Shown piece after piece: positions 2,197 to 31,245 of a stretch of 31,245 nt of DNA; position 1 is the stretch's first letter, and every line of letters starts with the position of its first letter. The DNA comes from Aphanomyces cochlioides (taxonomy: Eukaryota > Oomycota > Saprolegniomycetes > Saprolegniales > Verrucalvaceae), in the NCBI GenBank assembly GCA_019828595.1, contig JAHQRK010000087.1, forward strand, positions 1 to 31,245, read 5' to 3'. The notes below the pieces were generated by a model. The model was not told where the DNA came from. It worked only from the letters and a program-made list of their open reading frames with translations, and ran no database searches. Made by a program: the position numbers and the translations under genes.

Positions 2197-2198
2197 TC

Positions 2199-3337: not shown

Positions 3338-3352
3338 TGAGCTATAGAGGAT
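3338..3352 (-). repeat. target-site duplication, tRNA-Asn 5' end (left side of S2 copy 1)
   Basis: On the minus strand this reads ATCCTCTATAGCTCA, which is bases 1-14 of tRNA-Asn plus the base before it. It marks the 3' flank of A1. The rest of that tRNA should lie beyond the 5' end of A1, outside the window. Confidence 0.88.
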
Positions 3353-4233
3353 TCCATACTATCGTATACCCACCGTGCCACACATACACTCATACAATCC
3401 TTTCCACTGCAAACAACCACCACGGACACAGACATTATGCACATCGTAACCAAACACACGTCAATCAAAACAAACACTTTACACTCCAATCTCTCCACAA
3501 AAACACGATTCGACCAATGGACATCAAAATTTCACATGGACATGATACCCGTCTAAAATACGCGAGCAGTTCCGATTTTGACTCTTCTTCGGATCGAAAT
3601 CTTGTCCGAAACAAAGTTTCGTGCGGTACATCGACTTATTGAGAGCATATCAGTCTCCTGCTCGCGCAAGGAATGGGAGGGTATATCCTCAATACTCCGC
3701 AGAACAAATTCATAGGTTTCCATGAAACAAAAATATACCTGGTAAACACATGTTCAATCAGAATATCAATCATATTTCCATTCGGCACAACATTAAATTC
3801 TTTTCACTAAACAACAGCAAAGCTACACCAACTGTTTATCGTACTCAATCCATCAAGCAACATCGCTCAACTTGTTTCAAACAGTTCATATCATCTTGAT
3901 TGGACTTGATTTTGTTTCACATTCTACAGAAATGGTGGTAGTGTTTTCGAGGCTTTCTGAATAGGATGTTTTTGACAGTCATGAAAGTGTATAATTCTTG
4001 TTCCATGTGCTGGTGTAGATTGTCGAAGTGAAGGTCTCGAGTTTATCAACAATGTTTTATCTGAGAGAAGCGTCGGTGTGCCTGGTGACGTAGTTTCTCT
4101 GTATAAATGTGTCGATATTCGGAGAAGCGAGTGGTGACTACGACGGTGACATGATGCACGGGTGTGATATGGATTGTCATTGTAGGTATTGTATGAGTGT
4201 ATGTTTGAAACGGTGAGGGAAGTATAGTATGGA
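3353..4233. repeat. divergent intergenic spacer S2, copy 1
   Basis: This spacer of about 880 bp lies between two tRNA-Asn 5' ends facing away from each other and is nearly identical to 21306-22187 and 23275-24156. Its ends are inverted repeats (TTCCATACTAT at the left, ATAGTATGGAA at the right), continuing the palindromic layout of the tRNA flanks. I see no convincing protein gene: short frames of 60-103 codons at 3331-3642 and 4046-4249 have no recognisable features. Both tRNA sites bordering this copy are occupied, by A1 on the left and B1 on the right. Confidence 0.85.
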
Positions 4234-4248
4234 ATCCTCTATAGCTCA
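4234..4248 (+). repeat. target-site duplication, tRNA-Asn 5' end (3' flank of B1)
   Basis: ATCCTCTATAGCTCA follows the native upstream flank GTATAGTATGGA. The same flank at 22176-22187 leads into an intact tRNA, which makes that locus the empty-site control for this insertion. Confidence 0.9.
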
Positions 4249-4405
4249 CTGCAATGGGGAGGTATATTAATAGACTTTCAATATCTACTAATACTAATAT
4301 TGCCTACTAACGGCTCATCCCACTTCCAAATGCTTCAGCAGATTTTCTACTTTGGGCTTTGGAGTACAGCGATTTTTGACTTGTTGAATAAATACTTGGG
4401 GCTTG
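4249..4405 (-). other. LINE B1 3' UTR with conserved terminal module
   Basis: In element sense this region holds GGAAGTGGGATGAGCC and GGCAATATTAGT, then a 10-bp stem (TATTAGTAGA with TCTATTAATA, one G-U pair), and ends CTCCCCATTGCAG. The order matches the family A 3' end while the stem sequences differ. This is probably the recognition site for the element's own reverse transcriptase. Confidence 0.72.
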
Positions 4406-7400
4406 TTAATTTGGGGCTGAAGGTTGGAGCGCGAGCAAAGTCGGGTACTTGGCTACCAGTGGGCGATAGACAGGTTGTCTATGCAAAGTATTGATTGCTG
4501 AAATTGCTTCCACTCGTTGAGGGCTGTCAACTTCTTGGAGGCGAAGCCATCTGCGGATCGATGCATGCCATCGGATGAAGCTGACTTCTTGCCAAATTTC
4601 TGGCGGAGGCGGCTCCTTCGATTCGAACTTGGCGGCGTTGTGCGTTGTCCAAATATAGTGAAGGTTGGAAGCACACAGAAGAGCCCAGAGCACAAACAGT
4701 ATGTCTTGAAGCTGGCTACCGCGTTCGTTGACTTGAAAGCGGTCGATGTTGGTGATGGCAGTCCAATCGAAATTGACACCGAAGCATCGCCAAGCGGTCG
4801 CGTGAAAACGCCAAAGGGGATACACGCGAGAGCAGGTGTGGAAGGCGTGGTGTTGGTCCTCCGGTGCGTCGCAATTGGTATAGACACAGCAAATTACGTC
4901 TGGCTGCTGAGGTTGCAAGTAGAACAAGCGCGAGTTGACAGGCAGCATGTTGAACAACAGTCGAAACCAAACGTCGCCATGGAGGGGAGGCGGCCAACGG
5001 CATGTTTTGCGGATGAGTCGCACGTAGGTCGCAATATCTTGTTGCTCGACGCGGGACGATGTCGCCACTGGGTGCGGTTTTCCATCCGAAGGGGCGTGAT
5101 GCGCCAAACGTGATACGAGTCGCTTGGGCCAACGCTCGAAGGATAGCAATTGATCTTTGAAAAGTGCCTTGAAAGGGTGACTTGTTGTATCGATATCGGT
5201 CAAAGCAGTTCCAGTTCGAACGCCAGACGTGCGGAGGACTTGGTCGAATATCTTGGTGAGGTGGCTATAAACTTGACCAGCACGTTCGGGTGCTGCAAAT
5301 CCCATCGCGCCGTTCGCTTGTAACGTCACTTGTGCCGCACGGTTGTTGGATGACAGTCGATCAATAAACGCAGCTCTTGTAGGCCATGTCCCTTGCCGTG
5401 TCAAGAAGTCTTTGAGGCAGTGGAAACCGTTTTGAGACGCATGTCTACACCATCGACGACACAGAGCAGTCTTCACGACATTTGATGTAGCACCCGCAGG
5501 ACCAACTTGCAGAGCGGGGTAGGATGTCAGCCACACGGGGAGGTTCAAAAGTTCTTCGAGGCTTGGTGGCGAAGCGGTTCGCTTGGCCATAGGTGTGGCG
5601 GCCCATTGATGCCAAATGTCGTGCCAAAGAGGATGCAGCTCCCACAAAAACAACCACTTGGAGCTGTGGTTGGGGAAGTACGTGAGAAAGTCGAACGGGT
5701 GGGTGTCGCGATACAGCTTGTTCATGACACGGGAAAATTGTCTCTTGACAAGCAACTTCCATGGGGCAAATGTGTTGGGTGAATTGGGCTGCATCAAGAG
5801 TTGGAGCCGCAGCAGTCGCTGAGTCCGAAGCTTCGAAGCCACATGCGGAATACCGAGGCCGAGTTTTTGATCGAACTGCCACTTGCGGCAAATAGTTGAG
5901 CGATGATGGTCGGTGATTTGCGTCTTCCGACCAAGGATGTACTTGTTGACCATTCTTTGCCAAACGGCAACCATCGTTGGAGGCACATACACTGCAGCCG
6001 TGACATGCCATAACAACGACAACAACATGGTCGATACGATGAGTTTGCGGCCTTGGATGGTTCGCGCACGACTTCCCCACGTTTGAAACGCAGCCAGAAA
6101 CTTGTCGTTCAGTTGCTGGACTTGAAAATCGCGCGGCAGTCGGTGGCCAAAGAGAATACCAAGGTATTTCACTGGCTTCTCGCTCGGCAAGACGTTCAAG
6201 AGGCCACCATCGTCGATGTCTTCGATATCGAGATTGTTGTTGAGCGCCAAAGTCATGCACTTGGCAACGTTGAGACGAGCTCCAGACACAGAGCAAAAGT
6301 CTTCGACAATTGCCATTTGCTCGACCGCCGCTTGGAGGGATGACGAGAGTAGAGTCGTGTCGTCGGCAAAGTAGATGCTCGTCAGTGAGTCTCCATTTGG
6401 AAGGGGAATACCAAAATCAGGAGATCCGCGTAGCATTTCGCCGAGTGGCTCGAGGTAAAGTACGAAGAGCATGCACGATAGGGGGCAACCTTGCTTGACT
6501 CCGCGGGTAGGCCGTATGGTAGGGCCAAGACCGTCGTTGAAAATGATCTGGACCAGAGGCGTATTGTAAAGCAACTGAACCCAAGACACAAATGTGGGAC
6601 CGATGTTCATCTCCTTGAGTACGTCGGAGAGAAAGCCTTGGTCAACCATATCGTATGCCTTGGAAAAGTCGAGAAACGTCGCGTAGTAGTCGTGGTCTTC
6701 ATTGGTACAGAAAGTCTGCAATGCTTGTACCAGCATCACGTGGTCGTGCAAGCGACGGCCAGGGACAAAACCAGCTTGGCTTGGGTGAGCGAGGTATGGG
6801 GCAACTTGTGCAAGACGGTAGGCCAGCGCCCGCGATAGAATCTTGACTTCAACCGACATGAGAGTAATCGGCCGATAGTTGCCAGGGTCGCCTCTGTCTC
6901 CAGCCTTGAACAAGAGCGCCACTGCACTTCGGCGTTGTTGGAGCAGGAGGTGACCGTGATGGGTGAGTTGGTAGTTGAACACCTTGAGCAGGATTTGGGC
7001 GAATACGTCCGGGGAGACTTGAAAGAAAGCTGCAGGCCAGCCGTCTGAACCAGGAGACTTGTTCGGGTTCATAGACTTGAGCGCGCCGCACAGGTCTTCC
7101 GCCGTGAGAGGACTTTCCAGAGCGTCGCGCTGTTCTTGAGTGAGACGTCGAGTAATGGCTCGAATGATAGCTCGGCGACGGGCCCGATTCAACGGTGGTT
7201 GGTCTCTTGGAGTGACCATGATGTTTTTCCAATGAGACGTAAAACCAGCCTTGACTTCAGACGGGTCAGTCGACGTTGCACCGTTGATTGTCACGGACGA
7301 GAGCGGCACTTTGATCCCCTTGGGTCGACGAAAACAGTGACTGGTACCTCGCTCGTTGACGTTGGCGTGAAAGTCGAATTGCTGATCCAGGTTGAACTGT

Positions 7401-8559
7401 CGGTACTCGCTGCGGGCAGTGTCAAGGGCTTGACGGGCGGTATTAACAATGGATGTCTCAACGAGTCCCATGTCGAATGCTCGGCGGGAAGTAAGCCACT
7501 TCATCTTGAGGCTGTTGAGTGTGTACTTCATCGAGTCAATGTACTGGCGATGACTGACTTGGAGACGCTTCTTCATTCTCTTCAACCAGCCGTACCACTT
7601 TGCGCCAAAGTTTTGAGTGTCGTCTGCGCGCATCTCGTCCAAAAGTTGATTGGCTTCGGCCTTGATCGCTGCGACTACTTGAGGGTTCTTTAAGAGCTCA
7701 CGGGGAGGCGCCAGTAACTTCGGTCGGGAGCTCGCTGCTCGCAGGAGAGGACCACTTTGTGTTCCATGTGGTCGCCTGCAAAGCTGCTTGGGGAATAGCT
7801 TGAACGTGCGTACGTTTGAGCGACGATATCTTGGTCCACAAACAGGTAGTCGAGGCGGTTGCTTCGACCAGGGCCGCTGTAAACGCGCTCGTTGGGGTGG
7901 TGCATCCTCCACGCATCGATAACACCAAGTGCTGAAAGCCAGGCAATGCATTCCGCCTTACCAGCGTTGTGGTCTTGGCGAGGTCGAGTCGCGTCCAGAT
8001 GCTCCTCCAGGGGTAAGTTGAAATCGCCTCCGACAAAGTGAATGCTGTCGTCTTCAAAGTCGCGAGGCAGATCGTCGAAAAACGGTGCTCGAGAGTGAGC
8101 GATAACCGGGGCATAGACGTTGTGAAAGTACACAGGAACGCCGTCCCACTGAGTTCGAACAACCATGTATCTTCCAGGTCGGTCATGGGTGGTCAAGTGT
8201 TGCAGGTCGAGGAATCCAGGCATGGATCCATGGAAATACGATGCCACACCGCAGCGCCGATTGTTGAGTGAGTCGACGCGATCAGTGCGGAGATCGTTGG
8301 TGAAGAGCTTGTATTTGCCAACGCCTACTTCGTTGTTGAGGTGGAGTTGGAAGGTTTCGAGATGTTTGATGTTATTGATTTTGGTTTCTTGAAAGAAAAC
8401 GGCTTGGGTCGGAATTTGGAGTCGCCGCGCCACAAGATGTCCGTTGTCTTTCAGCCCATTGAGGTTGGCAGTGGTCAGTTCGAGTATGGGGAACTTGGTG
8501 AAGAGACCGGCCGCGACCACCTTAGCCACGGAACGCGACAGACGTTGCGTTCGCAACAT
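4406..8559 (-). pseudogene. LINE B1 ORF2: APE endonuclease, reverse transcriptase, CCHC zinc knuckle (one frameshift)
   Basis: ORF2 nicks the target and reverse transcribes the element RNA. From ATG at 8559 it starts with an APE-type endonuclease (ANLNGL, QETK, GGDFN, SNRLDY and AGDHMEH at about residues 32-266). The RT follows, with NKSPGSDGW near 500, LDFSKAYD near 630, GVKQGCPLS near 690 and the YFADD catalytic motif near 730. A C-x4-C-x7-H-x4-C zinc knuckle lies near 1225-1243. One G is missing in a G run near 7706, shifting the frame between endonuclease and RT. Restoring its length gives 4155 nt (1384 residues), the same as corrected B2. The start overlaps the ORF1 end by 38 nt. The domain order fits the L1/Tx1 group. 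The single homopolymer indel could be a sequencing error. Confidence 0.9.
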
Positions 8560-11520
8560 CTCCCAGCATGAGTGTCTGAGTGTCGGGTTGGAACATCACT
8601 TGGTTGTCGAAGGTGGGGTCCAGGGAGCCAGCCTCATGGAATTCCAGGATCGTGGTCAAGACGTATCGCGACTTCTCGTCTTCGCCGGCATACAACGTTT
8701 CCATGATATTCCAAATCAAGAGGCCGAAGCTCGTGTCAAGCAATATGGCAGATAGCGATACGCCCGACAAACAGCGGGAGCCCAAATGAGAAGCCAGTGC
8801 AGTGACCGGGTACTTGGTAGAGGCCACGATCGCAGCATCACTGTTGTAGTACGTTGGAGCATGAATGGCCAAGAGAACTTCTGCCACAGCCAACACTTCT
8901 TCCAGGTCGCCGCGGTGGAGGGAAATCTCGTCGCCGTCAATGGTAGTATCGATGAAGTCGATGTTCTTGAATAGCTCGATGTTGCTGAAGATGGCTTGAA
9001 CGTGCTCGCGGGTCATACGCACACCCCACGTCAATGAGTACAGCTGGGAGAACGGTTTGTCTCCACCCAAGTCGCTCGAAGCCACCGATGGAGGAGGCGT
9101 TGTCTCACAAAGTACTCAAAGCATGCACGGTCTTCATCAAAAAGTCGGTGCAGTTGCAAGCCAAATTCAATCGGGGAACGCTCGAGATGGCTACACAGCA
9201 TGTCGACGCGGCCGTCGTTGATGAGTTGGGCAAGGTTGAACGAGCTGTTGGTCACTGCATCTTCGACTTGGGTTGAGAGATGCAATGGAACTTTGGCTGT
9301 CTTGGTGTCGAGGTCTTGTAGTTCGGCGAGAATTTCGTCAAGAGACATTTCTATGCGCTTGGGAACGCCATCTTGGATCTTGGTGCCGCCGACAAATTGA
9401 CCGGACGTAGGGAGGTGGGGAGGGTCATCCGAGACGTCCAGCTTGGGTACAATCGTTGAGATCTTGTAATCGCCAAACTGAGCAACGTGTTCCTCGGGGT
9501 TGACACACACACGTTCGTCGAGGGCTTCAAACATGTTGGGCGAAATCCAAGAGCGGCCATGCTCGGGGGAATCCACTTGCTGTTGCGTCTTCTTGCGCTT
9601 GCCTCTCGACGCCTTGACGCCAGTCCACTGCGGAGGGTTGGCTTGCGCAGTTTTCCGACGTTTTGGCGCCTTGGGAGTCGAAGAAGGCGGGTTGGTTGGG
9701 CTGGGAGCTGGCTTGTTCAATCCATATTGGCGGGACGTTGCATCAAGGTCCAAACGAACCAAGTTCTTGTCACGAAAATACCACCCTTGACCGTACACGC
9801 GGAGACAACGGCCCTTGAAAAGAATTTCTTCGACGAGACGGCTGTCGCGCTGTATGGTCGTTGGTACGGAGGTTCCTTCAAAGTAAAGGCGGTACCGAGA
9901 GCTCGCCATACCGCTTGAAGAGGAAACGTTGGGGTAGGAGCCCCACAGGAAGCGTGGCTCCAACTTGGTCATGACGTCGAAGATCAGGCGCTCTTCGTCT
10001 TGATCTTGAAGGCCTTGAGGGATGTCCATGAAAAATCCGCCGAGGACGTGCGGAACGTTCATCGTGAAGTGTTGGGACGAGCCATCTCGAGCGACTTGAA
10101 TCTTAAACGCGATGCCTCGCAGCTTCGTCATCGCTTCGTGAGAGGCAACACCCCACTTGAGCATGCGGTTCGGGATGTCCTTCTCGCATCTCACAATGTC
10201 AGCAATCGCAGTGTCGAGGCCGAGGGCTTGGTTGTCGAAAAGGATCGATGCCATGGCAGCTGAAACATCGATGGTCTTCGTGTGTGCACCCGTGGGCATC
10301 TGCAACCAGCCGACGATGCCGCGCGCCGAGTGCTTCTGGATCGGGAGGGTGTCTTCAAACGTGAGGGTTCCAGCAGCACGCTTGCGAAGGAGGGGTTCGA
10401 GTTCCTCCATCGTGGGCTGGTAAGGAGCAACGTCCTTGGTCTTGATGGCCTTGGCAGACTGAGACCGCTGTTGCGCTTGGAAGGCCCATACGTCGTTGGG
10501 GGCCTGGCGGTTGTTGGGTTGGCCACGGCCAGGTGTCTGGGCTCCGCCAGATTGAGAAATGTTTTCCAAATGCGATCCGGGTGAAGCCTGAGACGATGGC
10601 TGGCGGACTGAGTGAGAGTCCGAGTCGTGCGTCAGACCAACACTCAAGCGTGCGTCAGAGGCTTGGTCTTGTCCGGACCCTGTCCCATGGTGGACAGAGT
10701 CACACGTTTGACCTTCACTCGCGTTGGACTTCGAGAAGCTTCCATGGGTGACTTGGTCTTGAGTATTCCCATGACCAACACTGGCCACAGGGTTGTTCGC
10801 GATTGTTCCAGATCTTGCCCGATGATTCTTCGAGAAGAGACCATCACTCATGGAGCGACTAGTCTCGATGGGATCTTGACCTGTCGCCAGAGTGGACTTG
10901 TCGCTCGGGGGATTCTTCGAGAAGGGACCTTCACTCAGGGATGGACTGTTCTCGAATCTTCCTTGACCTGTCGTCATGTTGACGTCGGTGCTTGAGCGAG
11001 TCTTCGAGAAGCCACTATCACTCGTCGAGAGAACATTCTCGAAAGGAACAGAACCCAACGGAGTCTTGCCAGGCAAGCCACCATCACTCACGATGGACGT
11101 GGTTGATGGAGATTCTTCGGGCAAGGTCGTTGACGTCATGAGCACATCTTCCGAGGTTGGAACGCCGTCTTGCCAGGCTTCGTCGCAAGTGTCAGAGGTC
11201 GTTGGATCATTCGCGGGATCGCAAGCCTTCGTCGAGCGAGTCACAGGCAAGGGTTCAAAACGGCGCGGTTTCGAAGGGGTTGCACGTTGACGTGGAAACG
11301 GAACGCGCGTTGGAGTAGGGAGCGGATTCGTAGACGCGTCATGATGCGAAGCGTTGGAAGCATCGTCGACGTCCTCTTCCAACGACGACGCCATGTCGGT
11401 ATCGCTTGGGGATGGGTCAGCAACGACGATGACGTCCATATCGCTGGGGCTGGACGCCGAGGGAGAGAACGCGGAGGAGCAAGATGGGGCACGAGGGTTG
11501 GTCGAGCGGGTAGCAACCAT
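8522..11520 (-). pseudogene. LINE B1 ORF1, family not recognised (one frameshift)
   Basis: This is the first ORF of the element, expected by position to encode the RNA-binding partner of ORF2. I chose ATG at 11520 (MVATRSTNPRAP) because it aligns with MATTRSSS of family A ORF1; an ATG 42 nt upstream falls in the conserved 5' UTR. Residues 1-330 are rich in Ser, Thr and Asp and include degenerate tandem repeats of about 29 residues around FSKN/FSKT (residues 148-265). A conserved core follows from DVWAFQAQQRSQSAK, with LPIQKHS, LWGSYPNVSSSSG, YRLYFEG and GRCLRVYGQGWYF. A Lys/Arg-rich linker and a helical C-terminal region (LDEILAELQDLD onward) come next. One C is missing near 9068, shifting the frame. 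Corrected length is about 999 residues. I recognise no named domain. Confidence 0.8.
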
Positions 11521-11574
11521 ATTGTCAGATAGCGTAGAGTGGTACTGCGGGGTAGCTGGCAAATTGGAAACTAT
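11521..11574 (-). promoter_or_regulatory. LINE B1 5' UTR with shared 5' motif
   Basis: This short leader of about 54 nt begins near GTTTCCAATTTGCCAGCTAC (11552-11571 on the minus strand), which is also found at the same place in A2 and B2. I infer it is part of the promoter or RNA 5' end; no other promoter element is evident. Confidence 0.55.
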
Positions 11575-11589
11575 ATCCTCTATAGCTCA
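11575..11589 (+). repeat. target-site duplication between B1 and A3
   Basis: A third perfect copy of ATCCTCTATAGCTCA. It serves at once as the 5'-side duplication of B1 and the 3'-side duplication of the A3 fragment, showing two insertions stacked at one tRNA. Confidence 0.9.
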
Positions 11590-12025
11590 ATGTCAATGGG
11601 GAGTCTATTTGTAGTTAATGTAAACTACAAACTAATATTGCCCGAAGGCTCATCCCATTTCCAACTGCTAGGCTGAATTGGAAATCAATTTGGCTTTTCG
11701 TTTTCTTGATTCGCTGCGACGTTGGGACTTCGATTTCTTCGGTGTTTGTAAGCTAACACGGCGAATATGTCGGATAAAACTGACTCTTGGCATCTGACCC
11801 AGGGGGTATACATTTTCATTGTCTTGGATCATACATAGACTTCGGTCTATGCAGCGCTTGTATCGCTTGGCGAGGACCCAGCAATGGGATGTTGAATCAG
11901 TGACAGAAACAACCAAGAATTCTCCGTCAGGCTCATCCAATATCGCTCTACAGATATCACGAATTGGATCACCCACCGATTGCTTGAGCAGTTGACGGGA
12001 GAATATGGCGTCGTTGTAGTGGAAT
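11590..12025 (-). mobile_element. LINE family A, copy A3 (5'-truncated, about 436 bp)
   Basis: In minus-strand sense this equals the last 436 nt of family A (20855-21290): the ORF3 tail and the full 3' UTR. It is flanked by ATCCTCTATAGCTCA at 11575-11589 and 12026-12040, so it is an independent insertion with typical LINE 5' truncation. The truncation point (ATTCCACTACAACG) meets the target at a short GGAAT microhomology. It is wedged between full-length B1 and the tRNA body. Confidence 0.92.
11668..12025 (-). pseudogene. LINE A3 ORF3 remnant (C-terminal part)
   Basis: This fragment keeps the last 118 or so codons of ORF3, from HYNDAIFSRQLLKQ to the stop. It includes the candidate catalytic His (TSHCWVL) and Asp (IQDNE) and the basic tail, but the Cys-bearing half and the chromodomain-like region are gone. 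Confidence 0.85.
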
Positions 12026-12040
12026 ATCCTCTATAGCTCA
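12026..12040 (+). repeat. target-site duplication overlapping tRNA-Asn 5' end
   Basis: ATCCTCTATAGCTCA is the 5'-side duplication of A3 and at the same time bases -1 to 14 of the tRNA gene at 12027-12099. Confidence 0.9.
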
Positions 12041-12099
12041 GTTGGTAGAGCGTACGGCTGTTAACCGTAAGGTCGCAGGTTCGAACCCTGCTGGAGGAG
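12027..12099 (+). tRNA. tRNA-Asn(GTT)
   Basis: This is an intact 73-nt cloverleaf. The acceptor TCCTCTA pairs with TGGAGGA (one T-G pair) with discriminator G. The D arm is GCTC/GAGC with loop AGTTGGTA, the anticodon stem TACGG/CCGTA with loop CTGTTAA (anticodon GTT), and the T arm GCAGG/CCTGC with loop TTCGAAC. A box (TAGCTCAGTTGG) and B box (GGTTCGAACCC) are complete. Its native upstream flank is replaced by the A3 fragment, then B1, but the internal promoter is untouched. There is no intron. It is identical to 22188-22260. Confidence 0.96.
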
Positions 12100-12102
12100 T
12101 TC

Positions 12103-12115
12103 TTTTCTCTCTTTT
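12103..12115 (+). terminator. Pol III T-run terminators of tRNA-Asn
   Basis: Two TTTT runs (12103-12106 and 12112-12115) begin 4 and 13 nt after the tRNA 3' end, typical of RNA polymerase III termination. Confidence 0.8.
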
Positions 12116-13073: not shown

Positions 13074-13086
13074 GAGAGAAAGTAAT

Positions 13087-13161
13087 CTCCGCAAGCAGGG
13101 GTTCGAACCTGCGACGCTACGGTTAACAGCCGTAATGCTCTACCAACTGAGCTATAGAGGA
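13087..13161 (-). pseudogene. tRNA-Asn(GTT)-like, degenerate
   Basis: The 5' half matches the intact gene (acceptor TCCTCTA, A box, D arm), and the anticodon loop CTGTTAA (GTT) is kept. Differences follow: an extra base between the D and anticodon stems, CGTAGCGTC for CGTAAGGTC, an extra C in the T stem, and a 3' acceptor strand TTGCGGA that mispairs at two positions. It is either a decayed gene or a real gene with consensus errors, since the neighbouring spacer is also indel-rich. Element A2 begins one base upstream of its 5' end. Confidence 0.7.
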
Positions 13162-13162
13162 T
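13148..13162 (-). repeat. target-site duplication, 5' side of A2
   Basis: TGAGCTATAGAGGAT on the plus strand, repeated exactly at 21291-21305. It contains the first 14 bases of the minus-strand tRNA plus one base. Confidence 0.92.
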
Positions 13163-13218
13163 GAAAGTTTCCAATTTGCCAGCTACCTTGGACTACCACC
13201 TGTCCGTAAACTGACAAC
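13163..13218 (+). promoter_or_regulatory. LINE A2 5' UTR with shared 5' motif
   Basis: The 56-nt leader contains GTTTCCAATTTGCCAGCTAC at 13167-13186, identical to the 5' ends of B1 and B2, whereas the rest of the leader differs. This suggests selection on the 5' terminus for promoter or RNA-end function (inference). Confidence 0.55.
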
Positions 13219-15680
13219 ATGGCGACTACCCGCTCTTCCAGCCGTGCTCATGCACACAAGCCCTCAGCTTTTTCTGCCTCTCCCTTTCGCAATACCTCGG
13301 ACGCTTCTAGTATCATGGAGGTGATTGTTGACGATGATGATGACGATGAACCTGACTCAATCATCGACAAAACTCCGCCTGCTGCTCAACCGCCCATACG
13401 TCTTGCTACACTCGGTGGTCGCGTGCCATTACCAAGCGCTCGTACCAGCGACAAAACTGTCAACAAGGATAATGTTTCTCCGATGCCTGATGAAGACATA
13501 GAGGATATCTCCAACAACAACCAACCACATACCCCACCGATTACTCAAGCCACTGAGCTGGAGCCGCGCTCTGAAGACCAATCGATTCGCGACACCAATG
13601 TTGATGTGGAAATGGAGCCTGAAGCTCAAATCGATGCCTCGCCTCCTGCTACAACACGCTCCGTGCCAATACCACCCGAGTCGAACACCTCGACCAAAAA
13701 GCCAAACGAATGCGTGTGGGAATTCCAAGCCAAGCAGAGAGCTAAATCTGCCAAGGCTCAGCGGAACAGTGACGTCGGCCATTATCGACCAACTATGGCC
13801 GAGCTGGCGTCCTTGTTGCAAAAACGCGCGACAGGATCTCTCGTTTGACGACACTTTGCCCATCCAAAAACATTCCCCAGAGATGTTGTTGGCTGGCTAC
13901 AAATGTCCACTGGCCAATACACCAAATACATCGACATCTCCAAGGCAATGACATCTCTATTGTTTGACAACCAAGCGCTTGATTTGGACGATGCATTTGT
14001 CGATGTCATCAAGTGCGAGAAAGATGTCTCCAATCGTCTTCTCAAGTGGGGCATAGCCTCTGAAGATGCTCTTAAAAAGCTGCGTGGGGTATCTCTCAAG
14101 ATCCAAGTGGCAAAGGATGGCAGCTCTCAGAGATTTGTCATGACTGAGCCCCATATACTTGATGGATATTTCATCGATATCCCATCTGGTCTCCAAGGAC
14201 AGGATGAAGAACGTCTCATGTTCAGCATCATGTCAAAGCTTGAGCCGCGCTTTTGTGGGGCTCATACTCCACAGTTTCCTCGACGACTGGCTTGGCTAGC
14301 TCTCGTTATCGCTTGTATTTTGAAGGGACAGCTATACCCGAATCTATGCACAATGACGGTCGATCAATTGAAGAATTCATTTTCAAGGGTCGGTGCCTCC
14401 GCGTGTTTGGTCAAGGATGGTTTTACCGTGACAAGAAGCTCGCGCGCCTTGACCTCGATGTAATCGCCACCCAACATGGACTTCACGCAACCCCTCACCG
14501 CCCACGGGGAGACGCCGCTGTCTCGACATCCACTGCCAAACGGCAGAAAACGACCCGAGACAGCAACAAGGAATGGACTGAAGTTCAAACTACAGGCAAA
14601 AGAAAGAAAACCCCAATCTCCGCTGGCTCAATCCCAGCTCCTGATCGTCCTTGGATCTCCCCGAACATGTTTGCGGCTCTGGACGAACGCGCTAATGTTG
14701 AGCCCGAGGAACACGAAACGACAGTTGGCAACACCACTGTCAAAGTAATTGTTCCAAAGCTGACACTCAAATCTGGTGACAAGGTGCACGTTGCCGCTGA
14801 AGAGTTCATTAGCGGGATCAAACCCCACGAGGGCTCAATCCAAAGGTTTGAGAAGTCTCTCGATGCCATACTTGCCGAGCTCAACGACCTTGACACCAAG
14901 GCTCAAAACGCACCACAACATATCCCGGCCCAAGTTAAGGAAGCGTTAGCGCACGATTCCTTCAACTTATTGAAATTGATTACGGACGGGCGTGTTGACA
15001 CGATCTGCATCCATCTAGAACGTGCGCCAATCGAATTTGGACTGCAACTGCACCAAATTTTTGTCTCCAATCGTGACAGCTTCGAATACTTTGTTCGTCT
15101 TCGACTGCTTAATCGTTGGCTAAGAGCGTCTGGTGGTGGCACAAAATCTTTTGGTCAGCTCTACGAGGCAACATTCGGCACTCCAATCACTCACGACCAC
15201 GTGATCTCGGTGTTCAGTGACCAGAAGATGGTCAACAACCTCCCACTCATCGAGGCAATCATCACCGATGATGACATCGTCCTCAACAGAGTTGAAGTCG
15301 AAGAAGTGCTGGCCATTGCAGAAGTATTGATGGCAGTTCATGCTCCACTATATTTCAATAGCGATGCGGCAATTTTGGCCTCAACAAAAAGTCCAGTGAC
15401 AGCGTTACCCTCTCGCCTTGGTAAACGCAGTCTATCCTCCGAAACGCTCATGTCACTCCTGATGTACACCGACCTTGGCCTCCACATATGGAACAGAATG
15501 GAATTCATGTACACTGGCGACGGAGAATCGATGTGTCACATCATGACAAAAATCCTTCAACTACACGAAAGCAACGATTTGGATATCACTCTCCACAATC
15601 AAGTCATGTTTCACCCAAGCGAACCTACTTTAATTCACGGCGACCTAGCGGATCTCACAACGATCGCTTCCCGTGGCTAA
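13219..15680 (+). pseudogene. LINE A2 ORF1, family not recognised (three indels)
   Basis: It is homologous to family B ORF1 from the conserved core onward (CVWEFQAKQRAKSAKAQ, LPIQKHS, YRLYFEGTAIP, GRCLRVFGQGWFYRDKKLARLDLD, then LDAILAELNDLDTKAQ to the C terminus). The N-terminal 150 or so residues are acidic and Pro/Ser-rich, with a DDDDDDEPD stretch, and lack the FSKN repeats of family B. Relative to B ORF1 there is a 2-nt loss near 13848 and 1-nt losses near 13880 and 14254 (T run before GTGGGGCTC). Corrected length would be about 821 residues. Its stop at 15678-15680 lies inside the start of ORF2. No named domain is recognised. Confidence 0.82.
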
Positions 15681-19784: not shown

Positions 19785-19997
19785 TTTGATTACAAGCCCC
19801 AGCTGTATTCTTGACTTGGTATCCCAGCTGAATTTTTGATTGGGAATCCTGGCGACCATCACTCACGATCCGCGCAAAACATTTCACTGCCCAATCAAAT
19901 CGTGCCTGACTCAAGTGTCGCAACTGAGAATAAGTTCAGTGAGAATCTCAAAACAATTCTCCAAGACTCACTTTTGATTTTACCCAAGACAACAACA

Positions 19998-21212: not shown

Positions 21213-21290
21213 CAGTTGGAAATGGGATGAGCCTTCGGGCAATATTAGTTTGTAGTTTACATTAACTACAAATAGACTCCCCATTGACAT
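21213..21290 (+). other. LINE A2 3' UTR and terminal stem-loop
   Basis: GGAAATGGGATGAGCC lies at 21218-21233, GGCAATATTAGT at 21238-21249, and a 9-bp stem at 21249-21257 with 21264-21272 (6-nt loop). The end CCCCATTGACAT meets the target directly. The same order of motifs is present in family B with different stem bases. Confidence 0.75.
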
Positions 21291-21305
21291 TGAGCTATAG
21301 AGGAT
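21291..21305 (-). repeat. target-site duplication, 3' side of A2
   Basis: A perfect 15-bp match to 13148-13162. It is followed by the native tRNA upstream flank TCCATACTAT of spacer S2. Confidence 0.92.
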
Positions 21306-22187: not shown

Positions 22188-22260
22188 TCCTCTATAGCTC
22201 AGTTGGTAGAGCGTACGGCTGTTAACCGTAAGGTCGCAGGTTCGAACCCTGCTGGAGGAG
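22188..22260 (+). tRNA. tRNA-Asn(GTT), uninterrupted empty site
   Basis: Same 73-nt sequence and cloverleaf as 12027-12099, with anticodon GTT in loop CTGTTAA and complete A and B boxes. Here the native upstream sequence (GTATAGTATGGA) is still attached, so no retrotransposon has landed in this copy. Confidence 0.97.
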
Positions 22261-23211: not shown

Positions 23212-23274
23212 CTCCTCCAGCAGGGTTCGAACCTGCGACCTTACGGTTAACAGCCGTACGCGAGCTATAGAGGA
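23212..23274 (-). pseudogene. tRNA-Asn(GTT) with 10-nt D-loop deletion
   Basis: It is identical to the intact tRNA except that AGTTGGTAGA is missing after C13, leaving 63 nt. The loss removes the D loop, half of the D stem and the 3' half of the A box, so neither transcription nor folding is expected to be normal. Acceptor, anticodon and T arms are unchanged. The left breakpoint lies one base from the inferred endonuclease nick site (after A14) used by the LINEs. Confidence 0.88.
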
Positions 23275-24156
23275 TTCCATACTATCGTATACCCACCGTG
23301 CCACACATACACTCATACAATCCTTTCCACTGCAAACAACCACCACGGACACAGACATTATGCACATCGTAACCAAACACACGTCAATCAAAACAAACAC
23401 TTTACACTCCAATCTCTCCACAAAAACACGATTCGACCAATGGACATCAAAATTTCACATGGACATGATACCCGTCTAAAATACGCGAGCAGTTCCGATT
23501 TTGACTCTTCTTCGGATCGAAATCTTGTCCGAAACAAAGTTTCGTGCGGTACATCGACTTATTGAGAGCATATCAGTCTCCTGCTCGCGCAAGGAATGGG
23601 AGGGTATATCCTCAATACTCCGCAGAACAAATTCATAGGTTTCCATGAAACAAAAATATACCTGGTAAACACATGTTCAATCAGAATATCAATCATATTT
23701 CCATTCGGCACAACATTAAATTCTTTTCACTAAACAACAGCAAAGCTACACCAACTGTTTATCGTACTCAATCCATCAAGCAACATCGCTCAACTTGTTT
23801 CAAACAGTTCATATCATCTTGATTGGACTTGATTTTGTTTCACATTCTACAGAAATGGTGGTAGTGTTTTCGAGGCTTTCTGAATAGGATGTTTTTGACA
23901 GTCATGAAAGTGTATAATTCTTGTTCCATGTGCTGGTGTAGATTGTCGAAGTGAAGGTCTCGAGTTTATCAACAATGTTTTATCTGAGAGAAGCGTCGGT
24001 GTGCCTGGTGACGTAGTTTCTCTGTATAAATGTGTCGATATTCGGAGAAGCGAGTGGTGACTACGACGGTGACATGATGCACGGGTGTGATATGGATTGT
24101 CATTGTAGGTATTGTATGAGTGTATGTTTGAAACGGTGAGGGAAGTATAGTATGGA
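23275..24156. repeat. divergent intergenic spacer S2, copy 3
   Basis: Third near-identical copy of the 880-bp spacer. Its left border is the deleted tRNA and its right border is the B2 insertion. No gene is seen in it. Confidence 0.88.
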
Positions 24157-24171
24157 ATCCTCTATAGCTCA
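24157..24171 (+). repeat. target-site duplication, 3' flank of B2
   Basis: ATCCTCTATAGCTCA preceded by the native flank GTATAGTATGGA, exactly as at 4234-4248. Confidence 0.9.
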
Positions 24172-24327
24172 CTGCAATGGGAGGTATATTAATAGACTTT
24201 CAATATCTACTAATACTAATATTGCCTACTAACGGCTCATCCCACTTCCAAATGCTTCAGCAGATTTTCTACTTTGGGCTTTGGAGTACAGCGATTTTTG
24301 ACTTGTTGAATAAATACTTGGGGCTTG
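24172..24327 (-). other. LINE B2 3' UTR with conserved terminal module
   Basis: GGAAGTGGGATGAGCC (24234-24249 on the minus strand) and GGCAATATTAGT (24215-24226) are followed by the TATTAGTAGA/TCTATTAATA stem. One C is missing near the 3' terminus compared with B1. No poly(A). Confidence 0.72.
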
Positions 24328-27300
24328 TTAATTTGGGGCTGAAGGTTGGAGCGCGAGCAAAGTCGGGTACTTGGCTACCAGTGGGCGATAGACAGGTTGT
24401 CTATGCAAAGTATTGATTGCTGAAATTGCTTCCACTCGTTGAGGGCTGTCAACTTCTTGGAGGCGAAGCCATCTGCGGATCGATGCATGCCATCGGATGA
24501 AGCTGACTTCTTGCCAAATTTCTGGCGGAGGCGGCTCCTTCGATTCGAACTTGGCGGCGTTGTGCGTTGTCCAAATATAGTGAAGGTTGGAAGCACACAG
24601 AAGAGCCCAGAGCACAAACAGTATGTCTTGAAGCTGGCTACCGCGTTCGTTGACTTGAAAGCGGTCGATGTTGGTGATGGCAGTCCAATCGAAATTGACA
24701 CCGAAGCATCGCCAAGCGGTCGCGTGAAAACGCCAAAGGGGATACACGCGAGAGCAGGTGTGGAAGGCGTGGTGTTGGTTCTCCGGTGCGTCGCAATTGG
24801 TATAGACACAGCAAATTACGTCTGGCTGCTGAGGTTGCAAGTAGAACAAGCGCGAGTTGACAGGCAGCATGTTGAACAACAGTCGAAACCAAACGTCGCC
24901 ATGGAGGGGAGGCGGCCAACGGCATGTTTTGCGGATGAGTCGCACGTAGGTCGCAATATCTTGTTGCTCGACGCGGGACGATGTCGCCACTGGGTGCGGT
25001 TTTCCATCCGAAGGGGCGTGATGCGCCAAACGTGATACGAGTCGCTTGGGCCAACGCTCGAAGGATAGCAATTGATCTTTGAAAAGTGCCTTGAAAGGGT
25101 GACTTGTTGTATCGATATCGGTCAAAGCAGTTCCAGTTCGAACGCCAGACGTGCGGAGGACTTGGTCGAATATCTTGGTGAGGTGGCTATAAACTTGACC
25201 AGCACGTTCGGGTGCTGCAAATCCCATCGCGCCGTTCGCTTGTAACGTCACTTGTGCCGCACGGTTGTTGGATGACAGTCGATCAATAAACGCAGCTCTT
25301 GTAGGCCATGTCCCTTGCCGTGTCAAGAAGTCTTTGAGGCAGTGGAAACCGTTTTGAGACGCATGTCTACACCATCGACGACACAGAGCAGTCTTCACGA
25401 CATTTGATGTAGCACCCGCAGGACCAACTTGCAGAGCGGGGTAGGATGTCAGCCACACGGGGAGGTTCAAAAGTTCTTCGAGGCTTGGTGGCGAAGCGGT
25501 TCGCTTGGCCATAGGTGTGGCGGCCCATTGATGCCAAATGTCGTGCCAAAGAGGATGCAGCTCCCACAAAAACAACCACTTGGAGCTGTGGTTGGGGAAG
25601 TACGTGAGAAAGTCGAACGGGTGGGTGTCGCGATACAGCTTGTTCATGACACGGGAAAATTGTCTCTTGACAAGCAACTTCCATGGGGCAAATGTGTTGG
25701 GTGAATTGGGCTGCATCAAGAGTTGGAGCCGCAGCAGTCGCTGAGTCCGAAGCTTCGAAGCCACATGCGGAATACCGAGGCCGAGTTTTTGATCGAACTG
25801 CCACTTGCGGCAAATAGTTGAGCGATGATGGTCGGTGATTTGCGTCTTCCGACCAAGGATGTACTTGTTGACCATTCTTTGCCAAACGGCAACCATCGTT
25901 GGAGGCACATACACTGCAGCCGTGACATGCCATAACAACGACAACAACATGGTCGATACGATGAGTTTGCGGCCTTGGATGGTTCGCGCACGACTTCCCC
26001 ACGTTTGAAACGCAGCCAGAAACTTGTCGTTCAGTTGCTGGACTTGAAAATCGCGCGGCAGTCGGTGGCCAAAGAGAATACCAAGGTATTTCACTGGCTT
26101 CTCGCTCGGCAAGACGTTCAAGAGGCCACCATCGTCGATGTCTTCGATATCGAGATTGTTGTTGAGCGCCAAAGTCATGCACTTGGCAACGTTGAGACGA
26201 GCTCCAGACACAGAGCAAAAGTCTTCGACAATTGCCATTTGCTCGACCGCCGCTTGGAGGGATGACGAGAGTAGAGTCGTGTCGTCGGCAAAGTAGATGC
26301 TCGTCAGTGAGTCTCCATTTGGAAGGGGAATACCAAAATCAGGAGATCCGCGTAGCATTTCGCCGAGTGGCTCGAGGTAAAGTACGAAGAGCATGCACGA
26401 TAGGGGGCAACCTTGCTTGACTCCGCGGGTAGGCCGTATGGTAGGGCCAAGACCGTCGTTGAAAATGATCTGGACCAGAGGCGTATTGTAAAGCAACTGA
26501 ACCCAAGACACAAATGTGGGACCGATGTTCATCTCCTTGAGTACGTCGGAGAGAAAGCCTTGGTCAACCATATCGTATGCCTTGGAAAAGTCGAGAAACG
26601 TCGCGTAGTAGTCGTGGTCTTCATTGGTACAGAAAGTCTGCAATGCTTGTACCAGCATCACGTGGTCGTGCAAGCGACGGCCAGGGACAAAACCAGCTTG
26701 GCTTGGGTGAGCGAGGTATGGGGCAACTTGTGCAAGACGGTAGGCCAGCGCCCGCGATAGAATCTTGACTTCAACCGACATGAGAGTAATCGGCCGATAG
26801 TTGCCAGGGTCGCCTCTGTCTCCAGCCTTGAACAAGAGCGCCACTGCACTTCGGCGTTGTTGGAGCAGGAGGTGACCGTGATGGGTGAGTTGGTAGTTGA
26901 ACACCTTGAGCAGGATTTGGGCGAATACGTCCGGGGAGACTTGAAAGAAAGCTGCAGGCCAGCCGTCTGAACCAGGAGACTTGTTCGGGTTCATAGACTT
27001 GAGCGCGCCGCACAGGTCTTCCGCCGTGAGAGGACTTTCCAGAGCGTCGCGCTGTTCTTGAGTGAGACGTCGAGTAATGGCTCGAATGATAGCTCGGCGA
27101 CGGGCCCGATTCAACGGTGGTTGGTCTCTTGGAGTGACCATGATGTTTTTCCAATGAGACGTAAAACCAGCCTTGACTTCAGACGGGTCAGTCGACGTTA
27201 CACCGTTGATTGTCACGGACGAGAGCGGCACTTTGATCCCCTTGGGTCGACGAAAAAAGTGACTGGTACCTCGCTCGTTGACGTTGGCGTGAAAGTCGAA

Positions 27301-28484
27301 TTGCTGATCCAGGTTGAACTGTCGGTACTCGCTGCGGGCAGTGTGTCAAGGGCTTGACGGGCGGTATTAACAATGGATGTCTCAACGAGTCCCATGTCGA
27401 ATGCTCGGCGGGAAGTAAGCCACTTCATCTTGAGGCTGTTGAGTGTGTACTTCATCGAGTCAATGTACTGGCGATGACTGACTTGGAGACGCTTCTTCAT
27501 TCTCTTCAACCAGCCGTACCACTTTGCGCCAAAGTTTTGAGTGTCGTCTGCGCGCATCTCGTCCAAAAGTTGATTGGCTTCGGCCTTGATCGCTGCGACT
27601 ACTTGAGGGTTCTTTAAGAGCTCACGGGGGAGGCGCCAGTAACTTCGGTCGGGAGCTCGCTGCTCGCAGGAGAGGACCACTTTGTGTTCCATGTGGTCGC
27701 CTGCAAAGCTGCTTGGGGAATAGCTTGAACGTGCGTACGTTTGAGCGACGATATCTTGGTCCACAAACAGGTAGTCGAGGCGGTTGCTTCGACCAGGGCC
27801 GCTGTAAACGCGCTCGTTGGGGTGGTGCATCCTCCACGCATCGATAACACCAAGTGCTGAAAGCCAGGCAATGCATTCCGCCTTACCAGCGTTGTGGTCT
27901 TGGCGAGGTCGAGTCGCGTCCAGATGCTCCTCCAGGGGTAAGTTGAAATCGCCTCCGACAAAGTGAATGCTGTCGTCTTCAAAGTCGCGAGGCAGATCGT
28001 CGAAAAACGGTGCTCGAGAGTGAGCGATAACCGGGGCATAGACGTTGTGAAAGTACACAGGAACGCCGTCCCACTGAGTTCGAACAACCATGTATCTTCC
28101 AGGTCGGTCATGGGTGGTCAAGTGTTGCAGGTCGAGGAATCCAGGCATGGATCCATGGAAATACGATGCCACACCGCAGCGCCGATTGTTGAGTGAGTCG
28201 ACGCGATCAGTGCGGAGATCGTTGGTGAAGAGCTTGTATTTGCCAACGCCTACTTCGTTGTTGAGGTGGAGTTGGAAGGTTTCGAGATGTTTGATGTTAT
28301 TGATTTTGGTTTCTTGAAAGAAAACGGCTTGGGTCGGAATTTGGAGTCGCCGCGCCACAAGATGTCCGTTGTCTTTCAGCCCATTGAGGTTGGCAGTGGT
28401 CAGTTCGAGTATGGGGAACTTGGTGAAGAGACCGGCCGCGACCACCTTAGCCACGGAACGCGACAGACGTTGCGTTCGCAACAT
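24328..28484 (-). pseudogene. LINE B2 ORF2: APE endonuclease, reverse transcriptase, CCHC zinc knuckle (one frameshift)
   Basis: The protein is nearly identical to B1 ORF2. The endonuclease (residues 1-290) and linker are open from ATG at 28484. A GT duplication near 27342 (CAGTGTGTCAAG for CAGTGTCAAG) then shifts the frame, and the RT and zinc knuckle continue in another frame to the stop at 24328. B1 is intact at that point, and B2 is intact where B1 has its indel, so the pair together define a complete gene of 4155 nt. The RT motifs including YFADD and all endonuclease residues (N34, E58, D179, N181, D237, H264) are unaltered. Confidence 0.9.
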
Positions 28485-31180
28485 CTCCCAGCATGAGTGT
28501 CTGAGTGTCGGGTTGGAACATCACTTGGTTGTCGAAGGTGGGGTCCAGGGAGCCAGCCTCATGGAATTCCAGGATCGTGGTCAAGACGTATCGCGACTTC
28601 TCGTCTTCGCCGGCATACAACGTTTCCATGATATTCCAAATCAAGAGGCCGAAGCTCGTGTCAAGCAATATGGCAGATAGCGATACGCCCGACAAACAGC
28701 GGGAGCCCAAATGAGAAGCCAGTGCAGTGACCGGGTACTTGGTAGAGGCCACGATCGCAGCATCACTGTTGTAGTACGTTGGAGCATGAATGGCCAAGAG
28801 AACTTCTGCCACAGCCAACACTTCTTCCAGGTCGCCGCGGTGGAGGGAAATCTCGTCGCCGTCAATGGTAGTATCGATGAAGTCGATGTTCTTGAATAGC
28901 TCGATGTTGCTGAAGATGGCTTGAACGTGCTCGCGGGTCATACGCACACCCCACGTCAATGAGTACAGCTGGGAGAACGGTTTGTCTCCACCCCAAGTCG
29001 CTCGAAGCCACCGATGGAGGAGGCGTTGTCTCACAAAGTACTCAAAGCATGCACGGTCTTCATCAAAAAGTCGGTGCAGTTGCAAGCCAAATTCAATCGG
29101 GGAACGCTCGAGATGGCTACACAGCATGTCGACGCGGCCGTCGTTGATGAGTTGGGCAAGGTTGAACGAGCTGTTGGTCACTGCATCTTCGACTTGGGTT
29201 GAGAGATGCAATGGAACTTTGGCTGTCTTGGTGTCGAGGTCTTGTAGTTCGGCGAGAATTTCGTCAAGAGACATTTCTATGCGCTTGGGAACGCCATCTT
29301 GGATCTTGGTGCCGCCGACAAATTGACCGGACGTAGGGAGGTGGGGAGGGTCATCCGAGACGTCCAGCTTGGGTACAATCGTTGAGATCTTGTAATCGCC
29401 AAACTGAGCAACGTGTTCCTCGGGGTTGACACACACACGTTCGTCGAGGGCTTCAAACATGTTGGGCGAAATCCAAGAGCGGCCATGCTCGGGGGAATCC
29501 ACTTGCTGTTGCGTCTTCTTGCGCTTGCCTCTCGACGCCTTGACGCCAGTCCACTGCGGAGGGTTGGCTTGCGCAGTTTTCCGACGTTTTGGCGCCTTGG
29601 GAGTCGAAGAAGGCGGGTTGGTTGGGCTGGGAGCTGGCTTGTTCAATCCATATTGGCGGGACGTTGCATCAAGGTCCAAACGAACCAAGTTCTTGTCACG
29701 AAAATACCACCCTTGACCGTACACGCGGAGACAACGGCCCTTGAAAAGAATTTCTTCGACGAGACGGCCGTCGCGCTGTATGGTCGTTGGTACGGAGGTT
29801 CCTTCAAAGTAAAGGCGGTACCGAGAGCTCGCCATACCGCTTGAAGAGGAAACGTTGGGGTAGGAGCCCCACAGGAAGCGTGGCTCCAACTTGGTCATGA
29901 CGTCGAAGATCAGGCGCTCTTCGTCTTGATCTTGAAGGCCTTGAGGGATGTCCATGAAAAATCCGCCGAGGACGTGCGGAACGTTCATCGTGAAGTGTTG
30001 GGACGAGCCATCTCGAGCGACTTGAATCTTAAACGCGATGCCTCGCAGCTTCGTCATCGCTTCGTGAGAGGCAACACCCCACTTGAGCATGCGGTTCGGG
30101 ATGTCCTTCTCGCATCTCACAATGTCAGCAATCGCAGTGTCGAGGCCGAGGGCTTGGTTGTCGAAAAGGATCGATGCCATGGCAGCTGAAACATCGATGG
30201 TCTTCGTGTGTGCACCCGTGGGCATCTGCAACCAGCCGACGATGCCGCGCGCCGAGTGCTTCTGGATCGGGAGGGTGTCTTCAAACGTGAGGGTTCCAGC
30301 AGCACGCTTGCGAAGGAGGGGTTCGAGTTCCTCCATCGTGGGCTGGTAAGGAGCAACGTCCTTGGTCTTGATGGCCTTGGCAGACTGAGACCGCTGTTGC
30401 GCTTGGAAGGCCCATACGTCGTTGGGGGCCTGGCGGTTGTTGGGTTGGCCACGGCCAGGTGTCTGGGCTCCGCCAGATTGAGAAATGTTTTCCAAATGCG
30501 ATCCGGGTGAAGCCTGAGACGATGGCTGGCGGACTGAGTGAGAGTCCGAGTCGTGCGTCAGACCAACACTCAAGCGTGCGTCAGAGGCTTGGTCTTGTCC
30601 GGACCCTGTCCCATGGTGGACAGAGTCACACGTTTGACCTTCACTCGCGTTGGACTTCGAGAAGCTTCCATGGGTGACTTGGTCTTGAGTATTCCCATGA
30701 CCAACACTGGCCACAGGGTTGTTCGCGATTGTTCCAGATCTTGCCCGATGATTCTCGAGAAGAGACCATCACTCATGGAGCGACTAGTCTCGATGGATCT
30801 TGACCTGTCGCCAGAGTGGACTTGTCGCTCGGGGGATTCTTCGAGAAGGGACCTTCACTCAGGGATGGACTGTTCTCGAATCTTCCTTGACCTGTCGTCA
30901 TGTTGACGTCGGTGCTTGAGCGAGTCTTCGAGAAGCCACTATCACTCGTCGAGTAGAACATTCTCGAAAGGAACATAACCCAACGGAGTCTTGCCAGGCA
31001 GTGCCACCATCACTCACGCGATGGACGTGGTTGATGGAGATTCTTCGGGCAAGGTCGTTGACGTCATGAGCACATCTTCCAGCAACGACGATGACGTCCA
31101 TATCGCTGGGGCTGGACGCCGAGGAAGAACGCGGAGGAGCAAGATGGGGCACGAGGGTTGGTCGAGCGGGTAGCAACCAT
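28447..31180 (-). pseudogene. LINE B2 ORF1, family not recognised (N-terminal deletion and indels)
   Basis: From about 30714 to the stop at 28447 (755 codons) the frame is open and includes the conserved core and the whole C-terminal region, intact at the site of the B1 frameshift. Upstream, B2 lacks the 266 bp equivalent to B1 11153-11418 and has several 1-2 nt indels (for example near 30754, 30797, 30955 and 31003), so the N terminus is broken. The expected start is ATG at 31180 (MVATRSTNP). The product role is inferred only from its position as ORF1. Confidence 0.8.
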
Positions 31181-31231
31181 ATTGTCAGATAGCGTAGAGT
31201 GGTACTGCGGGTAGCTGGCAAATTGGAAACT
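31181..31231 (-). promoter_or_regulatory. LINE B2 5' UTR with shared 5' motif
   Basis: A 51-nt leader beginning AGTTTCC; the shared motif GTTTCCAATTTGCCAGCTAC occupies 31211-31230 on the minus strand. Confidence 0.55.
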
Positions 31232-31245
31232 ATCCTCTATAGCTC
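31232..31245 (+). repeat. target-site duplication, 5' side of B2 (cut by window end)
   Basis: ATCCTCTATAGCTC, 14 of the 15 target bases, reaches the window end. It is either the start of another tRNA-Asn body or another stacked insertion. Confidence 0.85.

Follow-up and report, generated by a model that had tools for sequence, protein, structure and literature searches.

The window analyzed here is contig C86 of the oomycete Aphanomyces cochlioides (Saprolegniales), a stretch of 31,245 b within a 76.2-Mb assembly of 94 contigs. It is a tRNA-Asn gene array carrying two families of L1-type long interspersed nuclear elements (LINEs), A and B. It is highly probable that both families sit, antisense to the tRNA, at one base of the tRNA A box, between A14 and G15 (TRGCTCA/G, the slash marking the junction), and that their own endonuclease likely nicks the DNA there. 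The 3' junction, a duplication of 14-15 bp, a complete tRNA at the element 5' end, the stacking of insertions and the use of several isotypes are read directly from the sequence. An initial annotation of the window had described five insertions of the two families (A1, A2, A3, B1 and B2), and all are present. The insertions, the target-site copies (located by a 15-mer search) and the tRNA genes restored beside the insertions are as follows.

1..3337, plus strand: LINE A copy A1, comprising A positions 4687-6193 and 6990-8128, with (CCCCAAAC)n and other sequence intervening at 1501-2198.
3338..3352, minus strand: target-site copy ATCCTCTATAGCTCA at the A1 3' end.
4234..4248, plus strand: target-site copy at the B1 3' end.
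4249..11574, minus strand: LINE B copy B1, full length, 7326 b (alignment).
11575..11589, plus strand: target-site copy between the B1 5' end and the A3 3' end (stacked insertions).
11590..12025, minus strand: LINE A copy A3, 5'-truncated to its last 436 b (alignment).
12026..12040, plus strand: target-site copy forming positions -1 to 14 of the restored tRNA.
12027..12099, plus strand: tRNA-Asn(GTT), complete, restored at the A3 5' end (ARAGORN; Rfam, 72.1 bits; sequence).
13087..13161, minus strand: tRNA-Asn(GTT) at the A2 5' end, with an altered body here and a perfect one in its counterpart on contig C36 (ARAGORN; Rfam, 36.8 bits).
13148..13162, minus strand: target-site copy at the A2 5' end, within the restored tRNA.
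13163..21290, plus strand: LINE A copy A2, full length, 8128 b (alignment).
21291..21305, minus strand: target-site copy at the A2 3' end.
24157..24171, plus strand: target-site copy at the B2 3' end.
24172..31245, minus strand: LINE B copy B2, which reaches the contig end (aligned to 31233).

All five 3' ends adjoin TAGCTCA in antisense orientation to the tRNA, in agreement with the earlier claim of one exact site inside the tRNA. The 15-mer ATCCTCTATAGCTCA occurs nine times in the window (eight exact, one with one mismatch) against a shuffle mean of 0.03, and chance occurrence is thereby ruled out. The sequence of window positions 1499-31080 repeats C36:46-29615 in the same order with 99.4% identity. 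The five insertions of the window are therefore a second copy or haplotig and not additional events, and the evidence for independence is drawn from the rest of C36 and from other contigs. Because the C36 counterpart of the tRNA at 13087-13161 is perfect, the changes in that gene are private to the C86 copy or are consensus errors.

The pattern holds throughout C36:1-200000. This region has 72 copies of the target site (up to two mismatches), 35 of which lead into a tRNA body, 19 into an A 3' end, 14 into a B 3' end (two variant) and four into an allele with a 10-bp deletion. The native 5' flanks of tRNA-Asn genes (n = 39) lead to an insert in 22 cases, to an empty gene in 13 and to the deletion allele in four. 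All 33 inserts that have a 3' end are at the site; 31 junctions are exact, one has a base change in the target copy and one has five extra bases. A target copy is present on the 5' side of 31 of the 33, the other two adjoining unrelated or rearranged sequence. Twenty-two tRNA bodies follow an element 5' end, and all are identical to the reference tRNA over 73 of 73 nt, which bears out the initial annotation's statement that the tRNA body is restored; 12 of the 13 empty genes are identical to the reference and one carries a single change. The duplication spans tRNA bases 1-14, as had been stated, but its length varies among copies between 14 and 15 bp and is not uniformly 15 bp. With 33 inserts on 22 occupied genes, inserts must stack, and up to three stand in a row on one tRNA gene. 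Truncated start points number 17 among the 33 inserts; 15 distinct ones have both junctions read (11 A, 4 B).

The same junction predominates in the assembly as a whole. The final 14-mer of A has 204 exact matches, and a longer pattern, the A end plus TGAGCTATA (up to two mismatches), in which the end meets the A box TAGCTCA, has 202, with none for the backwards controls; the two counts are not necessarily one set, and positions are known for 100 places per count. At least two of the 204 are off-pattern: C10:198472, a chance match that is not an A element, and C15:1207852, where an A end meets TGGCTCA. A search for the A end followed by a non-T base gave no matches, with a pattern that skips places having T as the 35th base and so missed the C10 chance match. 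The final 14-mer of B has 225 exact matches, and 220 of them are joined to TRGCTCA: 187 are followed by TGAGCTA, 31 by TGAGCCA, and two are slipped (C42:110113 and C36:171067). Nearly all genomic A and B ends thus lie at the site rather than outside tRNA genes. Copy counts overstate insertion events, because array duplication also occurs. The 31 B ends followed by TGAGCCA all lie in one stretch of about 374 kb (C78:1889516-2263665), at the tRNA-Met 14-mer GCTCCTATGGCTCA. Position 9 of the target may accordingly be A or G, as in the RNA polymerase III (Pol III) A-box consensus, TRGCNNAGYNGG.

The initial annotation named tRNA-Asn as the target, and this proved too narrow: the target is the A box TRGCTCA/G of several isotypes. 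The targeted 14-mer is present in ARAGORN-called genes for Asn, Ile-AAT, Phe-GAA, Thr-AGT, Lys-CTT and Met-CAT, and in an intron-containing Tyr-GTA gene (locus L061) that was read by eye and not called by ARAGORN. The Lys and Tyr genes read are unoccupied, and their native flank is seen beside inserts elsewhere. Of the tRNA-Ile genes read next to an insert of A or B, all three are complete (L050, L052). At tRNA-Met, a 44-b piece of B lies between two copies of GCTCCTATGGCTCA, the second of which starts an intact gene. The Phe and Thr genes adjoin a common sequence (GCAAAAGTAAAAGT on the tRNA strand) that resembles the 5' end of another element. Further 14-mers of putative target tRNAs are GCCCCTATAGCTCA (C2), TCCCGTTTAGCTCA (C12, C1) and GGGGTTGTAGCTCA (C22). 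The presence of several isotypes at insert sites on different contigs rules out targeting of tRNA-Asn alone.

A third family, C, uses the site as well. At L052 an insert with a different 3' end (...CCCCGATTGTCAT) occupies the same base of a tRNA-Ile gene, and its 514-aa frame is 34% identical to residues 871-1371 of the B open reading frame 2 (ORF2) product. Use of one site by families this distant suggests that the specificity is old. Directly beside intact genes for tRNA-Thr and tRNA-Phe (L037, 64-148; L046, 1-864) is a sequence with the look of an element 5' end (ACTTTTACTTTTGCCGTC, element strand), possibly that of family C.

The coding features of the window copies, whose ORF2 is interrupted, are as follows.

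4406..8595, minus strand: B1 ORF2, in two frames in this copy (Pfam; endonuclease 7690-8595, reverse transcriptase 4406-7957).
9031..11586, minus strand: B1 ORF1 frame, no Pfam match.
15649..17934, plus strand: part of A2 ORF2, with reverse transcriptase (Pfam RVT_1, 3e-22) and an apurinic/apyrimidinic endonuclease (APE)-type endonuclease whose Pfam match is below cut-off (Exo_endo_phos, 5e-4).
18387..19784, plus strand: C-terminal part of A2 ORF2, zf-RVT below the Pfam cut-off (Pfam).
19815..21212, plus strand: A ORF3, 465 aa, weak Chromo-domain match only.

Family A is 8.13 kb long with stop-to-stop frames of 838, 1379 and 465 aa, and family B is 7.33 kb long with frames of 1017 and 1396 aa. 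Their ORF2 products are 64% identical over 1372 aa and include a LINE-type reverse transcriptase (RT; Pfam RVT_1, 4.5e-34). The best-scoring comparison of B ORF2 is with human L1 ORF2p (1.5e-56, versus 1.3e-24 for R2). ORF2 residues 137-824 are co-linear with human L1 ORF2p 91-781, the endonuclease lying N-terminal to the RT, with a Pfam Exo_endo_phos match below cut-off. A repeat search of the window found no long terminal repeats (LTRs), that is, no repeat of at least 60 b pairing both ends of any one copy. With an RT, no LTRs, variable 5' truncation, a fixed 3' end and target duplication, A and B are non-LTR retrotransposons, and the APE-type endonuclease, which precedes the RT in their ORF2, is a feature of the L1 group (L1 and Tx1 clades). 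No transposase gave a Pfam match above cut-off among the frames scanned, and no restriction-like endonuclease was seen, the N-terminal nuclease being APE-type, although no search was aimed at restriction nucleases. In a quick RT tree (135 of 148 rows) A and B group with Saprolegniales relatives (23 rows; Shimodaira-Hasegawa-like approximate likelihood ratio test support 99); the rows of the tree include no named reference from Tx1 or animal L1, and the tree carries a long-branch warning. ORF2 is uninterrupted in three of six A copies and eight of nine B copies examined, which suggests recent activity. Relatives were absent from IMG/VR, and two distant contigs in GTDB (26% identity) were not used.

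The insertions are interpreted as products of target-primed reverse transcription, which typically leaves a duplication, a fixed 3' end and 5' truncation. Read naturally, the 3' junction points to a nick between A14 and G15. The ORF2 protein, with its APE-type endonuclease and RT, would nick the tRNA sense strand after A14, and the freed 3' end of that strand would prime reverse transcription from the conserved 3' end of the element RNA (...CCCCATTG...). A cut in the other strand, displaced by 14-15 bp to where the mature tRNA starts (position -1 or 1), and subsequent repair would rebuild bases 1-14 ahead of the remaining gene and keep both internal promoter boxes and the terminator. A gene rebuilt in this way would be expected to remain active and to offer a new target. 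Occupied genes are predicted to keep working, given their intact 73 nt and T-rich 3' flank; their upstream sequence is replaced by the element 5' end. Recognition probably involves TRGCTCA/G and more of the tRNA gene, either D-arm bases on its flanks or Pol III factors bound to it. By arithmetic, not a count, 76 Mb should contain TRGCTCAG thousands of times, far more often than there are tRNA genes, and almost every A or B end is nevertheless found at a tRNA-like A box.

Several points weigh against insertion by a site-specific element endonuclease. We infer the nick, the strand order, the site recognition and the transcription of the tRNAs from sequence. The A end at C15:1207852 (L054) meets a TGGCTCA that follows a run of G and is not a recognized tRNA start; in our reading a tRNA-Val-like sequence is its neighbour. 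Five of the 225 B ends, one at C7:1097458, are not assigned to the site. The target 14-mer is read or contig-assigned for 144 of 203 A ends (59 + 29 + 56). Some neighbouring tRNAs are damaged: the tRNA read for the 14-mer GGGGATGTAGCTCA is a 30-bit fragment (L048), and four C36 copies carry the 10-bp deletion allele. Three truncation points are found twice in C36 (A start 6749, B starts 5526 and 3309). Ahead of the B end, six of seven loci taken from C47 and C54 have a common flank that resembles the 5' end of the family C copy at L052, which points to array duplication there.

Three other explanations were considered. In the first, which we regard as possible but doubtful, the exact junction would be set by pairing and not by the nuclease: element RNA that reads through into TGAGC(T/C)A would anneal to the nicked TRGCTCA end. 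Resident copies are followed in the genome by TGAGC(T/C)A, which would give a read-through RNA a tail complementary to every target, and the extra bases at two B junctions (C36:171067, C42:110113) resemble slippage; annealing leaves the second cut and the access to tRNA genes unexplained, however. Slightly less plausibly, the Pol III machinery (TFIIIC/TFIIIB on the gene) sets the target, as proposed for Dictyostelium TRE5, with an endonuclease of only weak sequence preference. This would suit the near-confinement of insertions to A boxes, and the TRE5-A ORF1 protein is reported to interact with TFIIIB proteins (PMC5911963). The junctions, in contrast, are exact to the base and restricted to TRGCTCA, whereas TRE elements are described there as scattering over a range of distances (PMC5911963), and the few other tRNA genes read close to the arrays, namely tRNA-His (L048, L058) and tRNA-Val-like (L054), have different A boxes (TAGTATAG, TAGTGTAG) and carry no insert there. 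It is very improbable that segmental duplication and gene conversion of tRNA arrays multiplied one or a few early insertions, the shared junction reflecting copying and not targeting: the near-identity of the array spacers (99.8-100%; 96% for a 218-bp remnant), the repeated truncation points, the flank common to the C47 and C54 loci and the repetition of C36 in the window are what copying would leave, but 15 distinct 5' truncation points meet one 3' base within 200 kb, families as different as A and B (64% in ORF2) and C (34%) are all at the site, and several isotypes on different contigs have their own flanks and their own duplicated 14-mers. The truncation points rule out a single event copied by segmental duplication as the whole story; they represent many independent events, to which array duplication adds copies.

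Targeting by the element endonuclease thus stays the preferred reading, and the exactness of the junction favours direct reading of the DNA, perhaps with read-through RNA annealing in addition. A wider proposal, toward which we lean with less assurance, is that oomycete L1-type LINEs use the A box as a universal, renewable landing pad, with one nick position in at least 10 tRNA families, rebuilt genes that would be expressed and hit again, and a specificity that A, B and C would have kept since before their divergence.

The array unit is about 1,970 b long and contains two tRNA-Asn genes in head-to-head and tail-to-tail arrangement, with spacers of 882 b and about 950 b; whole 882-bp spacers across the array have the identity given above. 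The remaining features of the window belong to this unit.

3353..4233, strand not applicable: native spacer between head-to-head tRNA-Asn genes, also at 21306-22186 and 23276-24156, 100% identical.
22188..22260, plus strand: tRNA-Asn(GTT), unoccupied, native 5' flank (ARAGORN; Rfam).
23212..23274, minus strand: tRNA-Asn with a 10-bp D-loop deletion from A14, unoccupied (Rfam; sequence).

ARAGORN calls three tRNA-Asn(GTT) genes in the window (12027-12099, 22188-22260 and 13087-13161 on the minus strand), and the Rfam scan adds the fourth, at 23212-23274 on the minus strand. These four tRNAs were the only Rfam matches in the whole window (E up to 0.5), and no known ribozyme was found at an element 5' end. 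The 10-bp deletion allele, which starts at A14 beside the putative nick and has a native flank and no insert, is also present at C36:21802, 49016, 58328 and 70381. It is possibly the scar of a failed insertion, spread by duplication.

Further observations concern the elements themselves. The interruption of A1 (1499-2198) is a telomere-like (CCCCAAAC)n tract of 42 units plus about 370 b of other sequence; C36 starts inside the same tract, and the interruption is either a chromosome-end event or an assembly join. Near their 5' ends, copies of A (C36:117819-125950) and B (C36:2819-10146) share 34 identical bases (GTTTCCAATTTGCCAGCTACCCCGCAGTACCACT) despite the 64% identity of their ORF2 proteins. 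The A pieces at L035 and L036 are plain truncated copies in a stack, and only L046 is chimeric: at 1916-3447, B positions 6587-7178 are joined to A positions 7190-8132, which fits template switching or recombination. ORF3 of A sits after the RT. Its match to the Chromo domain (PF00385) has an E value of 0.003 on a cut piece, below cut-off; conserved Cys, His and Asp residues look protease-like by eye; it has three database relatives, two of them from Aphanomyces cochlioides; and its predicted structure has a mean predicted local distance difference test score of 37, too low for use. Folds at the 3' ends scored better than shuffles for A (z -3.2) and B (z -2.9) and no better for C, and were not used as evidence.

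Genes are usually broken when a LINE enters them. Here an insert inside the gene leaves a complete gene, because the spacing of the two putative cuts puts the duplication over tRNA bases 1-14. Such rebuilding would offer a concrete way out of the trade-off between harm and copy number, and it explains the stacking of inserts. An APE-type nuclease that would read TRGCTCA/G is, in addition, a candidate with which to study, and perhaps apply, insertion beside tRNA genes that spares the gene.

Dewa, Keno and Mutsu belong to the Tx1 clade. Like A and B they are target-specific LINEs in small-RNA gene arrays, described from a tRNA-Leu spacer (Dewa), U2 (Keno) and 5S (Mutsu); unlike A and B, they are not placed in the A box by the source as far as consulted (PMC3706591). 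Utopia, reported from oomycetes among other hosts, is likewise a target-specific LINE in RNA gene arrays and differs in its target, U2 snRNA, and in its restriction-type, NeSL-like nuclease (PMC4640811). The dictyostelid elements TRE5, TRE3, NLTR-A and NLTR-B, listed with L1 (PMC5911963), share the APE-type nuclease and the link to tRNA genes, and TRE5 is antisense to the tRNA. They are described as inserting outside the tRNA over a range of distances (PMC5911963; PMC5006619), whereas A and B occupy one exact base inside the A box. NLTR-A, 2-6 bp upstream of the mature tRNA, comes near the appearance of the restored copy here.

The same A-box spot is occupied by Dada DNA transposons, which are described inside multicopy tRNA genes, often at nucleotides 8-13, with TAGCTC followed by AG in Perkinsus marinus (PMC3706591, PMC8869645). 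Dada elements have a DDE transposase and a 6-7-bp duplication, in contrast to the RT in ORF2 and the 14-15 bp of A and B, and their duplication would be too short to rebuild the start of the gene. A second enzyme class, unrelated to that of Dada, has thus settled on the A box. The view of the initial annotation that known tRNA-associated LINEs insert outside the tRNA is not supported: NeSL-1_TV, LIN15_SM and LIN25_SM are described as non-LTR elements specific for tRNA-Pro, tRNA-Arg and tRNA-Glu genes (PMC4640811). Compared by description, these resemble A and B as tRNA-gene-specific non-LTR retrotransposons; they are NeSL-related, a lineage with a restriction-type nuclease, and each is reported for one tRNA gene, whereas A and B are APE-type, match L1 best and use several isotypes. 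Open-access titles and abstract openings, a coverage that leaves Repbase outside, describe no APE-type LINE in the tRNA A box. As far as these sources go, tRNA-gene-specific LINEs are already known with another nuclease type, and the L1-type LINEs associated with tRNAs are described beside tRNA genes.

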